A stretch of 64,000 nt of DNA from Flexibacter flexilis DSM 6793 (GTDB lineage Bacteria; Bacteroidota; Bacteroidia; Cytophagales; Flexibacteraceae). The position numbers and the translations under genes were made by a program. Of the stretch, positions 19,896 to 22,736 are shown piece by piece (positions within the stretch are counted from its first letter, which is position 1; the number at the start of each line of letters is the position of its first letter). The stretch spans positions 744,001-808,000 of the forward strand of contig NZ_FOLE01000001.1 in assembly GCF_900112255.1 (NCBI RefSeq). Direction: 5' to 3'. Below the pieces are notes generated by a model. That model saw only the letters and a program-made list of their open reading frames with translations, did not search any database and was not told the origin of the DNA.

Positions 19896-19927
19896 TTTGT
19901 GAAAATAAAATCAATGCTTTACTTTTG
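19896..19927 (+). promoter_or_regulatory. Strong canonical promoter of the metNIQ leader
   Basis: TTTG at 19896-19899, a 20-base spacer, and TACTTTTG at 19920-19927 give a perfect match to the Bacteroidota -33/-7 consensus. The predicted start near 19933 is about 300 bases ahead of metN. No comparable promoter is seen between the downstream terminator and metN, where the best candidate at 20221 ends only seven bases before the start codon. Confidence 0.8.
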
Positions 19928-19983
19928 GGCATCGTTTGCGGCTCAATTTCCATGTAAGCAAATGTAAATCAACAAGATACAAC

Positions 19984-20097
19984 ATGAAAATCAGTTTATC
20001 AAAAGCATTGGCAATACAAAACAACGCTGGCAAGCAAATGGCAGCGGTGATGTGTTGTTGTATGATGAAACATACAACCTTGTATTGCTGTGTCTGA
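19984..20097 (+). CDS. Met/Cys-rich leader peptide (37 codons) upstream of metNIQ
   Basis: A short ORF, ATG at 19984 and TGA at 20095-20097, lying between a strong promoter and an intrinsic terminator. The peptide has five Cys and five Met. Nine of its last 19 residues are sulfur amino acids, in the runs MCCCMMKH (codons 23-30) and YCCV (codons 34-37). Such runs mark leader peptides that sense the matching charged tRNAs through ribosome stalling. The downstream genes import methionine, which fits. The coding sequence also contains RNA pairing partners for the terminator region. Translation is inferred. Cysteine-run leader peptides controlling sulfur genes are known in mycobacteria; I know of none described in Bacteroidota. 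Confidence 0.6.
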   Translation: MKISLSKALAIQNNAGKQMAAVMCCCMMKHTTLYCCV

Positions 20098-20149
20098 TAT
20101 AACGCGTTTTCTACACCATAAACTTTAGAAAAGGGCTTTACCACACAGC
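20011..20149 (+). promoter_or_regulatory. Candidate attenuator structure of the metNIQ leader
   Basis: Three pairings are perfect. 20057-20064 pairs with 20071-20078 (8 bp, 6-base loop) and overlaps the CCCMM codons. 20011-20019 pairs with 20080-20088 (9 bp) and encloses that hairpin. 20087-20093, which contains the last Cys codons, pairs with 20143-20149 in the terminator loop (7 bp). The second and third share bases 20087-20088, so they compete. A ribosome stalled on the Cys/Met codons would break the first hairpin and could favour the third, antiterminating pairing. Confidence 0.5.
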
Positions 20150-20166
20150 GTAAAGCCCTTTTTTTA
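20129..20166 (+). terminator. Intrinsic terminator ahead of metN
   Basis: A 12-bp perfect stem pairs 20129-20140 with 20151-20162 around a 10-base loop and runs into a T tract. It follows the leader ORF stop by 31 bases and precedes the metN ATG by about 70 bases, the position expected of an attenuator. Confidence 0.92.
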
Positions 20167-20234
20167 TTTTCTTTTCGTTAAGCGCACACCCCATTTGAGT
20201 ACCTATCAAAAACATTTATTTAACTTTTTGTTCA

Positions 20235-21263
20235 ATGATTTCAATACAGAACATTTCTAAAACTTTTACGCTCAAAAGCAAGACGTTCAAAGCTTTAGAC
20301 CAAGTAAATATGGAAATTGCGGAAGGGGACATAGTCGGCATTATTGGCAGTTCGGGCGCAGGCAAAAGCACTTTGATTCGGTGTATCAACCTGCTGGAAA
20401 AACCCGACAACGGCGCAATTGTGGTCAGGGGGCGCGACCTTACCAAGCTCAACGCCTCCGAACTGGCCGCAGAGCGCAAAAAAATCGGCATGATATTCCA
20501 GCATTTCAACTTGCTTTCTTCGCGTACCGTATTCGAAAATGTGGCTTTGCCGCTCGAATTAGACAAAGCCAACAAAACGCACATTCAGGCCAAAGTAACG
20601 GAACTGCTGAAAATAGTTGGATTGGAACACAAAGCAGACGAGTATCCCAAGAATTTGTCGGGCGGCCAAAAACAACGCGTTGCCATTGCCAGAGCTTTGG
20701 CCAACGACCCGCATTTGTTGCTTTGCGATGAGGCAACCAGTGCTTTAGACCCCATCACGACCCAGTCCATTTTGCAACTGCTCCGCGACATCAACCAGCG
20801 TTTGCGGATTACGGTTTTGCTCATCACGCACGAAATGGAAGTCGTAAAAGCCATTTGTAACCATGTGGCCGTTATTGACCATGGCCAACTGGTAGCCAAA
20901 GGCACGTTGGAAAACATTTTGTTCAACAACTCCCACCCCATTATCCGACAATTTTTAAATACCAAAAACATGACGATTCCTTCAGATTTTAATAAAACAC
21001 TTCAATCGCAACAAAACGACGGCTTGTTTCCGCTCGTAGAAATAGAACTCAACGGCAGAGTTGCTTTTGAGGATTTGGTAGATACGATTTACCATCATTA
21101 CAAAGTGCCTTACAAAATTATTCGGGCAGAAATAGAATATATCGGCAAAAAGAACTTCGGAAAAGCACTGCTCCAACTGCAAGGAAACGCCGACCACAAC
21201 GCCGACGTAATCAATTATTTTAATCAACACAAAATCTATAATTCGGTAAGAGGTTATGCTTAA
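20235..21263 (+). CDS. metN: Methionine ABC transporter, ATP-binding protein
   Basis: ATPase of the D/L-methionine importer MetNIQ. It has 342 residues. Walker A is GSSGAGKST (38-46), the signature is LSGGQKQR, and Walker B is LLLCDEATSALDP followed by the LLITHEMEV switch histidine. The last 80 residues form the C-terminal NIL domain (VEIELNGRVAFEDLV...), which binds methionine and shuts down transport in characterised homologues. The domain pins the family to MetN. It overlaps metI by 8 bases. The upstream leader and terminator suggest that transcription responds to sulfur amino acids. Confidence 0.95.
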   Translation: MISIQNISKTFTLKSKTFKALDQVNMEIAEGDIVGIIGSSGAGKSTLIRCINLLEKPDNGAIVVRGRDLTKLNASELAAERKKIGMIFQHFNLLSSRTVFENVALPLELDKANKTHIQAKVTELLKIVGLEHKADEYPKNLSGGQKQRVAIARALANDPHLLLCDEATSALDPITTQSILQLLRDINQRLRITVLLITHEMEVVKAICNHVAVIDHGQLVAKGTLENILFNNSHPIIRQFLNTKNMTIPSDFNKTLQSQQNDGLFPLVEIELNGRVAFEDLVDTIYHHYKVPYKIIRAEIEYIGKKNFGKALLQLQGNADHNADVINYFNQHKIYNSVRGYA

Positions 21264-21909
21264 TTCTAATGTGTCGCTGCTGCTGCAAGGCTTGCTCGAA
21301 ACTATTTTTATGACTTTTGCCGCTGGGCTGTTGGGTTTTGCTATTGGCTTGCCTGTGGGCATTTTTTTGTTCCTGACGCGGCGCGGCCAACTGCTCGAAC
21401 ACGCCATTTATCACCGCATTTTGTCGGTTTGGGTCAATGTGTTTCGTTCTATTCCGTTTATTATTCTCATCGTTTGGCTTATTCCGTTCACGCGTGCGCT
21501 GGTGGGAACGTCTATTGGCGTGTGGGCGGCTTTAGTGCCATTAAGTATTGGAGCTGCGCCATTTATTGCGCGTTTGGTGGAAAATAGTTTGCTCGAAATT
21601 CCCGCAGGACTCATCGAAACGGCGCGCGCGATGGGTGCAAACACCTACCAGATTATCACTAAAGTTTTGTTGCCTGAAGCATTGCCTTCGCTAATCAACA
21701 ACGCCACCATAACACTCATTACACTGGTCGGTTATTCGGCCATGGGCGGAGCTGTTGGCGCGGGAGGTTTAGGCCAAATCGGATACCAATACGGTTATGT
21801 CGGGTACGATACATTCATTATGAATGCTGTATTGCTGCTGCTCGTAGCCTTAGTTTTTATCATTCAATTTACGGGCGAAACGCTTTCCAAAAAATTTAAT
21901 CACCGATAA
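21256..21909 (+). CDS. metI: Methionine ABC transporter, permease
   Basis: A 217-residue inner-membrane permease with about five helices. The cytoplasmic coupling loop has the EAA-type motif ETARAMGANTYQIITKVLLPEALP (about 116-139), typical of MetI. The ATG overlaps the metN stop by 8 bases, so translation is likely coupled. Confidence 0.94.
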   Translation: MLNSNVSLLLQGLLETIFMTFAAGLLGFAIGLPVGIFLFLTRRGQLLEHAIYHRILSVWVNVFRSIPFIILIVWLIPFTRALVGTSIGVWAALVPLSIGAAPFIARLVENSLLEIPAGLIETARAMGANTYQIITKVLLPEALPSLINNATITLITLVGYSAMGGAVGAGGLGQIGYQYGYVGYDTFIMNAVLLLLVALVFIIQFTGETLSKKFNHR

Positions 21910-21926: not shown

Positions 21927-22736
21927 ATGAAAAATCTTAGCATCATTACATTGTTTTTCAGTGCATTAACTTTATTTTCTTGTCAGAAATCGGCCAAAGA
22001 AAACAATCCTAATCACCTAAAAGTAGGCGTTACTTCTGGCCCAGAAAGACAAATTGCGGAAGCTGCCCAAAAAGAGGCAAAAGACAAATATAACTTGGAC
22101 GTGGAACTGGTTTTCTTTAATGATTATGTCGTTCCCAACGAAGCACTCAATCAGGGCGACATCGACCTTAACGCCTTCCAACACGTGCCGTATTTGGAGC
22201 AGCAAGCCAAACAACGCGGCTACAAACTCGCTGTTGTGGGCAAAACGTTCGTGTATCCGATAGTGGCTTATTCCAACAAAATCCGAAATATCAGGGAACT
22301 GGCCAACGGTAGCACCATCGCCATTCCCAACGACCCGACCAACGGAGGCCGTTCGTTGCTTTTGTTACAACAAAATAGCTTGCTCCAACTGCGCGAAGGC
22401 GTGGGTTTGCTGCCGAAAGTAACCGACATCACGGCCAACCCTAAGCAGCTCAACATTCTGGAAATAGAAGCCCCGCAACTTCCGAGAGTTTTGGACGACG
22501 AAAACGTCGTACTGGCCATTATTAACAGTAACTTTGCGGCGCAAGCTGGCCTTGACCCCAACAAAAATGGTTTGTTGAAAGAAGATAAAAATTCGCCTTA
22601 TGTGAATGTTATTGCTGCCCGCGAAGACAACCAACACGAAGAAAAAGTACAGAAATTCGTAAAGGCCTATCAGTCGGAAGCGGTGCTACAAGCCGCCGAA
22701 AAAGCATTTGGTGCAAATGCAATAAAAGGCTGGTAA
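21927..22736 (+). CDS. metQ: Methionine-binding lipoprotein
   Basis: Substrate-binding component of MetNIQ, of the NlpA family, 269 residues. The signal peptide ends in a lipobox (TLFSC, lipidated Cys at about residue 19), so it is anchored to a membrane. The mature part starts with the family pattern LKVGVTSGPERQIAEAA and includes NDYVVPNEALNQGDIDLNAFQH and AIPNDPTNGGRSLLLLQ, which line the methionine pocket in homologues. It starts 17 bases after metI. Confidence 0.95.
   Translation: MKNLSIITLFFSALTLFSCQKSAKENNPNHLKVGVTSGPERQIAEAAQKEAKDKYNLDVELVFFNDYVVPNEALNQGDIDLNAFQHVPYLEQQAKQRGYKLAVVGKTFVYPIVAYSNKIRNIRELANGSTIAIPNDPTNGGRSLLLLQQNSLLQLREGVGLLPKVTDITANPKQLNILEIEAPQLPRVLDDENVVLAIINSNFAAQAGLDPNKNGLLKEDKNSPYVNVIAAREDNQHEEKVQKFVKAYQSEAVLQAAEKAFGANAIKGW

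Follow-up and report, generated by a model that had tools for sequence, protein, structure and literature searches.

The described systems closest to the leader considered here come from other phyla. The leader is a short open reading frame (ORF) with a run of cysteine (Cys) and methionine (Met) codons, and it lies ahead of the importer operon metNIQ in a 64,000-nucleotide (nt) stretch of the genome of Flexibacter flexilis DSM 6793 (contig NZ_FOLE01000001.1, positions 744,001 to 808,000; hereafter the window). In Rhodobacterales, uORFC-8-2 is described as a tandem-Cys upstream ORF that precedes cysS and is followed by a terminator with a U run, and attenuation via charged tRNA-Cys has been proposed for it (PMC8632094). 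Actinobacterial and mycobacterial cys operons are described as carrying poly-Cys leader ORFs in which the Cys run stands near the stop codon and no conserved terminator follows (PMC1262725), and the poly-Cys leader of Mycobacterium smegmatis is presented as a case of translation attenuation (PMC13236596). The classical mechanism of leader-peptide attenuation is set out for ilvB1 in a passage of the same source (PMC13236596). For Bacteroidota themselves, clues to leader-peptide attenuation upstream of amino-acid biosynthesis operons are reported in Flavobacterium psychrophilum (PMC9723704), and small ORFs in long 5' untranslated regions of Bacteroides thetaiotaomicron are called reminiscent of it (PMC7366714); the main-text passages of these two accounts mention neither a Cys/Met leader nor a sulfur operon.

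Comparison with described leader peptides

The window leader shares with uORFC-8-2 its tandem Cys codons, its terminator and the proposal of ribosome-mediated attenuation (PMC8632094). However, uORFC-8-2 is alphaproteobacterial, precedes cysS only and usually has two Cys codons at positions 14-15, with no Met run mentioned in the description (PMC8632094), whereas the Bacteroidota leaders precede metNIQ, sulfite reductase, cysCDN, cysteine-synthase-like and EamA genes. Going by that description, the window leader falls outside uORFC-8-2 in gene, phylum and peptide, and it has no Rfam match. The likeness to the mycobacterial leaders, as these are described, lies in a run of Cys codons by the stop codon of a short ORF before cysteine genes; those leaders have no conserved terminator, whereas the window leader has both a terminator and Met runs beside Cys, and its ATG stands 57 nt past the end of the -7 element rather than at the start of a leaderless transcript. 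A cysteine-responsive poly-Cys leader was reportedly the subject of Canestrari et al. in 2020, according to the title of that work.

The trp, his and ilv attenuators, as outlined in PMC13236596, are alike in control codons, terminator, alternative pairing and the masking of a strand at the stop codon, and they differ from the window leader in their control codons (here Cys and Met), in phylum and in target genes. Four of the features that define a trp/his-type attenuator were found here: an ORF with a run of pathway codons, a terminator before the first gene, an alternative pairing that excludes the terminator (in the minimum free energy, MFE, fold of the window leader without the terminator 3' arm), and appropriate spacing. 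Given that no Cys/Met leader of Bacteroidota was recognised in searches of the open-licence literature of PubMed Central (PMC), and that relatives are known elsewhere, the proposed Cys/Met-run attenuators before Bacteroidota sulfur genes are best regarded as a variant of known attenuation.

Very probably the window leader attenuates metNIQ transcription by way of the ribosome, reading charged Cys- and/or Met-tRNA, and belongs to a family of such attenuators ahead of sulfur genes in Bacteroidota. An initial annotation of the locus had put forward a Cys/Met attenuator, and this interpretation gains support from the recurrence of such leaders ahead of metN and other sulfur operons, among them that of a cysteine-synthase-like gene elsewhere in this genome. 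With both tRNAs charged, the ribosome would reach the stop codon at 20095 and cover strand 2 (20087-20093; all features are listed in Table 1); the terminator at 20127-20164 would then form and transcription would end before metN. With Cys or Met short, the ribosome would stall in the MCCCMM run (20050-20067), the first codon of which lies 37 nt upstream of strand 2, and strand 2 would pair with 20143-20149 before the 3' arm of the terminator is made, so that the polymerase could read into metNIQ. The run is likely to be the control site, and the YCCV end of the peptide is likely to encode the antiterminator strand. Translation of the leader, stalling of the ribosome, the identity of the sensed tRNA and the direction in which the switch responds are what we infer; the leader, its run, the terminator, complementarity to the own terminator arm and the spacing are found in the sequences more often than chance allows, and they fit the geometry of attenuation.

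Recurrence ahead of metN and other sulfur genes

The 37-codon ORF with nine Met or Cys residues among its last 19 (C-terminal part ..MAAVMCCCMMKHTTLYCCV) was confirmed as first annotated. When the 300 nt ahead of the window metN were shuffled, no ATG-initiated ORF with at least five Cys or Met in eight residues arose in any of 200 dinucleotide shuffles. Such an ORF was present at 10 of 20 Bacteroidota metN loci, the window included, against 0.01 expected from shuffles, and outside Bacteroidota at one of 58. That single locus (L150; loci are given here by L numbers) belongs to Parasutterella secunda and has a Cys/Met-rich ORF reading MRMCMMTMVL.

MetN with a NIL domain is rare, occurring in three of 291 genomes of the window's order; a NIL match was found in 19 of 395 genomes of a phylum sample, among them G307, which has just a 113-residue frame. 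Leader ORFs stand at 22 of 25 Flavobacterium metN loci (19 with CC and three with a single Cys in the motif; for example MKKENQKMNNYYHCSMMCCNAVMVFIDLA, then stop), and a leader with terminator precedes metN, or an EamA-metN pair, in 72 of the 78 Chryseobacterium operons fetched (for example MKSNFRNQSIKKHTINTMMMYCCMPELRNCCG, then stop); the leaders quoted from the two genera are each followed by a terminator. Of these 72 Chryseobacterium leaders, 47 start over 1000 nt before metN. The gene between them is an EamA transporter by Pfam in L074, and L075, L076 and L079-L082 similarly carry an intervening gene; the leader thus keeps its place before the first gene of the operon. A metN leader also occurs in another family (L062) and in another genus of the Chryseobacterium family (L057). 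The comparison of regions upstream of metN that the initial annotation had called for bears it out in that the run ORF, the terminator and the pairing of the leader end with the 5' half of the terminator recur in Flavobacterium and Chryseobacterium although the sequences differ, and no inspected metN locus retained the terminator while lacking the Cys/Met ORF. Among the proteins compared, Chryseobacterium MetN shares 66-70% identity with the window MetN, Flavobacterium MetN 50-52% and Dyadobacter MetN 51%, and the Chryseobacterium leaders resemble the window leader in KHT..YCC and in the terminator arm GGCTTTACCAC. Together these likenesses suggest that metN and leader in the window and in Chryseobacterium share ancestry or were transferred.

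Upstream regions of sulfite reductase genes were taken irrespective of motif, 30 loci being examined from 47 matching genomes among 198. Across Bacteroidia, 18 of these 30 loci, from 12 of 16 families, hold an ATG ORF with at least five Cys or Met in eight residues (0.02 expected); within the window's order, four of 24 sulfite reductase loci hold such an ORF (0.00 expected), and L361, L363 and L373 carry Cys runs under that threshold. A search of 247 Bacteroidia genomes with a promoter-ATG-MMCC pattern gave matches in 93, mostly chance judging by their reading frames. The leaders that were selected from it on inspection stand ahead of cysC-cysD-cysN, sulfite reductase accompanied by a SUMT-like tetrapyrrole methylase, a 3'-phosphoadenosine 5'-phosphosulfate (PAPS)-reductase-like gene and homoserine dehydrogenase, and one further pick precedes an EamA gene; the operons behind these leaders were identified by Pfam on sample proteins, the remaining gene names being assigned by eye. 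On these comparisons of sequence, the Cys/Met leader is particular neither to the window genome nor to metN.

At L349, L350 and L351 the leaders MTPIKQHHSSIASNRMMCCCCCCC and MTHIKQHHSFIKSAGMMCCFCCCC precede a PAPS-reductase-like gene, with no terminator found in the next 160 nt, and possibly represent a translational variant. In L358 (genome G822, a Flavobacterium outside the 25 with a NIL match) two Cys/Met leaders, MRNISHNKMTTVCCMMCCMSDALYEMAPR and MKTQASKNFAKKHHSMDCCHMMMCVHCCRNVSS, stand in tandem ahead of an EamA gene; a terminator was computed for the first, and a terminator-like hairpin is visible by eye after the second.

The window genome (G000) itself holds a further pair. A scan of it for MM..CC hit 29 places, eight of them in frames of at most 90 codons, where the reversed pattern hit 16; L393, L405 and L418 were inspected further, and L405 proved to be a leader pair. 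At this locus (contig C3, about 297,430-298,800 onward, the leaders at about 297,430-297,770) two Cys-run leaders lie in tandem, the first reading MALSNIRQMTKNVNFYNQIAAATMCCCCCCMAMPYLEDCIG if its first in-frame ATG is the start (ending ..MCCCCCCMAMPYLEDCIG) and the second MTQDFNIAVSVQNNANSLCAMMACCCCFAASRRCRM, both up to the stop codon. Each has its own terminator, and a PALP-family cysteine-synthase-like gene and then a JAB-domain gene follow. The segment AVSVQNNAN of the second leader resembles ALAIQNNAG of the window leader. The same genome gave no match to an assimilatory sulfite reductase query that 58 of 118 genomes of the order match at E <=0.001, and on that ground it may need an external supply of reduced sulfur.

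Two explanations would leave the ORF without a role. The first holds that the terminator is constitutive or serves the upstream gene and that the Cys/Met run arose by chance; the promoter match is by itself at chance level in the window and the coding signal of the leaders is weak, as this would have it, but Cys/Met runs at the leader position lie far above shuffles in three sets, leader and terminator remain before the first gene of the operon even where that gene is EamA, and the results on cognate-arm duplexes and spacing given below speak against chance, which makes it very improbable. The second takes the ORF for a by-product of a riboswitch or T-box upstream of metN. Riboswitches for S-adenosylmethionine (SAM) or T-boxes do control metN in other phyla, but at gathering score no Rfam family matched in the window or at any of ten related loci, and the low-threshold matches over the locus were to families of other kinds; this explanation is hardly credible. 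A metallothionein-like peptide or a ribosomally synthesised and post-translationally modified peptide (RiPP) was also considered and dropped, there being no conserved mature peptide and the terminator and gene context fitting attenuation.

Pairing and spacing of the putative antiterminator strand

All three pairings claimed for the leader RNA in the initial annotation were reproduced by MFE folding. The leader MFE structure holds both the pairing of strand 1 with strand 2 (20011-20019/20080-20088) and the local hairpin (20057-20064/20071-20078), with a z score of -3.9 that one of 200 shuffles equals. Strand 2 and strand 3 (20087-20093/20143-20149) are paired in the MFE structure of 20074-20151, that is, while the 3' arm of the terminator is still absent. 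Considered alone, this last pairing is within chance (eight of 100 shuffles of region 2 do as well).

In 25 leaders, chosen by the authors and several of them related, the leader end was paired with the 5' half of its own and of the other terminators. The cognate duplexes average -11.62 kcal/mol against -8.12 kcal/mol for non-cognate ones, a value reached by none of 20,000 permutations. For the window leader its own terminator arm is the best of 25, and 18 of the 25 leaders have their own arm in the top four. The hairpin used here for L341 differs from its reported terminator, and in L352 and L373 a strong pairing site falls outside the stretch searched. When lineages are compared, Flavobacterium, L062 and the window each pair most strongly within their own lineage. 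In the tandem locus of the window genome, the end of the first leader (UUGUAUCGG) pairs with its terminator (CCGAUACAA) at a strength that 46 of 2000 shuffles match, the arm being set by hand.

With the whole leader searched in all 25, the best site lies 20-45 nt after the first codon of the run in 21 (0.46 for non-cognate arms; one of 20,000 permutations), the exceptions being L341, L057, L360 and L367, and in 20 it falls between -20 and +12 nt relative to the stop codon (0.51; three of 20,000), the exceptions being L189, L054, L352, L360 and L373. Both ranges were set after an earlier count on 19 of the 25 leaders (without L057, L341, L344, L352, L360 and L373), the result of which was partly built in because the stretch was limited to the surroundings of the stop codon. 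Such spacing would leave the strand free with a ribosome stalled in the run and mostly masked with a ribosome at the stop codon.

A fairly fixed distance from run to strand 2 would suit an arrest site too, and it is conceivable that a Cys/Met-rich nascent chain senses a ligand (cysteine, methionine, SAM or a metal) and stalls its own ribosome, working the same terminator switch; Cys/Met runs could bind metals or react with oxidants. However, the order and context of the run vary freely (MCCCMM, MMCC, CCCACCCC, MMKDMCM), a freedom that fits the sensing of codons better than a specific fold of the nascent chain, and the downstream genes serve sulfur supply. An arrest peptide is accordingly unlikely.

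In five Flavobacterium leaders that stop early (L083, L192, L195, L196 and L198) the strand TGGCT(T/G) is retained past the stop codon, and its retention outside the ORF points to a constraint that acts on the RNA. RNAalifold on 62 Chryseobacterium leaders, which are close relatives, gives the terminator and, once its 3' arm is removed, a four-pair CCUU:AAGG helix; in individual folds that helix appears in 60 of the 62 and both helices in 47.

Several results weigh against the attenuator reading. Strict covariation, which the initial annotation had named as a check on the alternative helices, was not found for strands 2 and 3 within Flavobacterium: their pairs are nearly invariant there, and the variable flank gives no sign of it (its values are attained by 3819 and 1293 of 5000 permutations). 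In the duplex test the own arm ranks only seventh for L360 and L373 and between 12 and 24 for L057, L341, L344, L352 and L353; in the comparison of lineages, strand 2 of Chryseobacterium slightly prefers the window's arm (-12.1) to its own (-10.8), and that of L057 does not favour its own arm. The second leader of the tandem pair in the window genome is not distinguished by its pairing (322 of 2000 shuffles as good, arm set by hand), and automatic choice of the arm leaves no signal for either leader (194 and 198 of 500). If a ribosome stalled at 20050-20067 in the window, strand 1 would stay uncovered, so that its pairing with strand 2 might still compete. The leaders also give a weak coding signal, with a pN/pS of 0.56-0.76.

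The distribution also has gaps that count on the same side. The other two metN genes of the order (L014 and L015) have neither leader nor terminator; no leader was found at L047, L051, L183, L200 and L201, in six of the 78 Chryseobacterium operons (one on a short contig), or within 330 nt of metN in Dyadobacter, Pedobacter and Apibacter. A search of 58 other genomes with the window peptide gave no convincing homologue, its 12 weak matches including 10 that were inspected and looked unrelated. The pattern CCCMM matched in 33 of 281 genomes of the order, with more forward matches than its reversed control, and among the 30 of 37 places inspected there was no leader-like one outside the window.

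Amino acids possibly read, and anatomy of the locus

It is a tenable though somewhat less than even prospect that each leader senses one amino acid, either Met ahead of the importer with Cys incidental, or Cys throughout with Met incidental. All 72 Chryseobacterium leaders, which were selected for CC or MM, hold MM and 33 hold CC; all 18 sulfite reductase leaders hold CC, with MM in eight by eye count; L057, L361, L363 and L364 have Cys without a Met run; and control codons may match the target gene. On the other hand, Cys and Met stand side by side in many leaders, the window run itself being MCCCMM, at least one Cys occurs in all 72 Chryseobacterium leaders, and the Chryseobacterium and sulfite reductase sets differ in taxa. 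A single-amino-acid reading would alter the signal and leave the mechanism unchanged. The control codons may go with the gene downstream, Met with the importer and Cys with cysteine synthesis, or the leaders may respond to both amino acids; the window run fits either.

Cys/Met attenuators plausibly constitute a principal control of sulfur metabolism throughout the phylum, a proposal that we hold with moderate confidence. Each operon (metNIQ, EamA, sulfite reductase, cysCDN, cysH-like, cysteine synthase) would have its own leader, terminator and matching antiterminator strand, some in tandem, with Met and Cys codons matched to the target or mixed so as to answer either shortage. The leaders, recognisable by eye, would amount to a ready list of target operons and to a natural set of antiterminator/terminator pairs with differing sequences and a common spacing. 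Where two leaders stand in tandem before one gene, it may be asked whether the switch works in two steps or on two signals. Start sites in Bacteroidota mostly lack Shine-Dalgarno sequences, and it is in such a phylum that leader-peptide attenuation would be placed.

Table 1. Features of the metNIQ locus, in window coordinates
Feature	Position	Strand	Basis
Bacteroidota-type promoter match, TTTG-N20-TACTTTTG	19896..19927	+	sequence; Bacteroidota consensus
Leader peptide ORF, 37 codons, MKISLSKALAIQNNAGKQMAAVMCCCMMKHTTLYCCV, then stop	19984..20097	+	sequence; counterparts ahead of Chryseobacterium and Flavobacterium metN
Strand 1, partner of 20080-20088; would keep strand 2 sequestered	20011..20019	+	MFE
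Met/Cys control-codon run MCCCMM, codons 23-28	20050..20067	+	sequence; shuffle comparison
Local hairpin across Cys/Met codons, arms 20057-20064 and 20071-20078	20057..20078	+	folding
Strand 2, antiterminator 5' strand, within last codons (CCV)	20087..20093	+	folding; duplex ranking
Intrinsic terminator: 15-pair stem (5 G-C), 8-nt loop, U tract	20127..20164	+	folding
Strand 3, part of terminator loop; antiterminator partner of 20087-20093	20143..20149	+	folding
metN, ABC ATPase with NIL domain (Pfam ABC_tran + NIL)	20235..21263	+	
metI, permease	21256..21909	+	Pfam BPD_transp_1
metQ, NlpA-type substrate-binding lipoprotein	21927..22736	+	Pfam Lipoprotein_9

The remaining elements of the locus stand largely as first annotated. 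The promoter match is present, from which a transcript start is expected a few bases 3' of 19927, although the pattern alone is at chance level in the window (five matches against 3.8 expected). The terminator between leader and metN was confirmed, its stem now being placed with 15 pairs, and the Pfam domains of MetN, MetI and MetQ agree with the naming of the operon. The statement that no other good promoter precedes metN is roughly true: TTTG-N23-TAACTTTTTG can be seen by eye at 20194-20230, its spacing too wide for the Bacteroidota consensus.

Some minor observations concern the surroundings of metN. A palindrome-like element (CCTACTAAATTGATAGG / GTCTACT..AGTGGACTAATAAAA), perhaps a regulator site, lies just 5' of the leader promoter in Flavobacterium and Chryseobacterium (L048-L055, L072, L077 and L078); none was seen by eye in the window. 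Most of 88 Chryseobacterium genomes have, besides MetN, a second NIL-domain frame, of about 110 residues among the matches listed. In the window, a gene of the glycine transporter family (PF03458, 22783-23397) lies 3' of metQ on the same strand.

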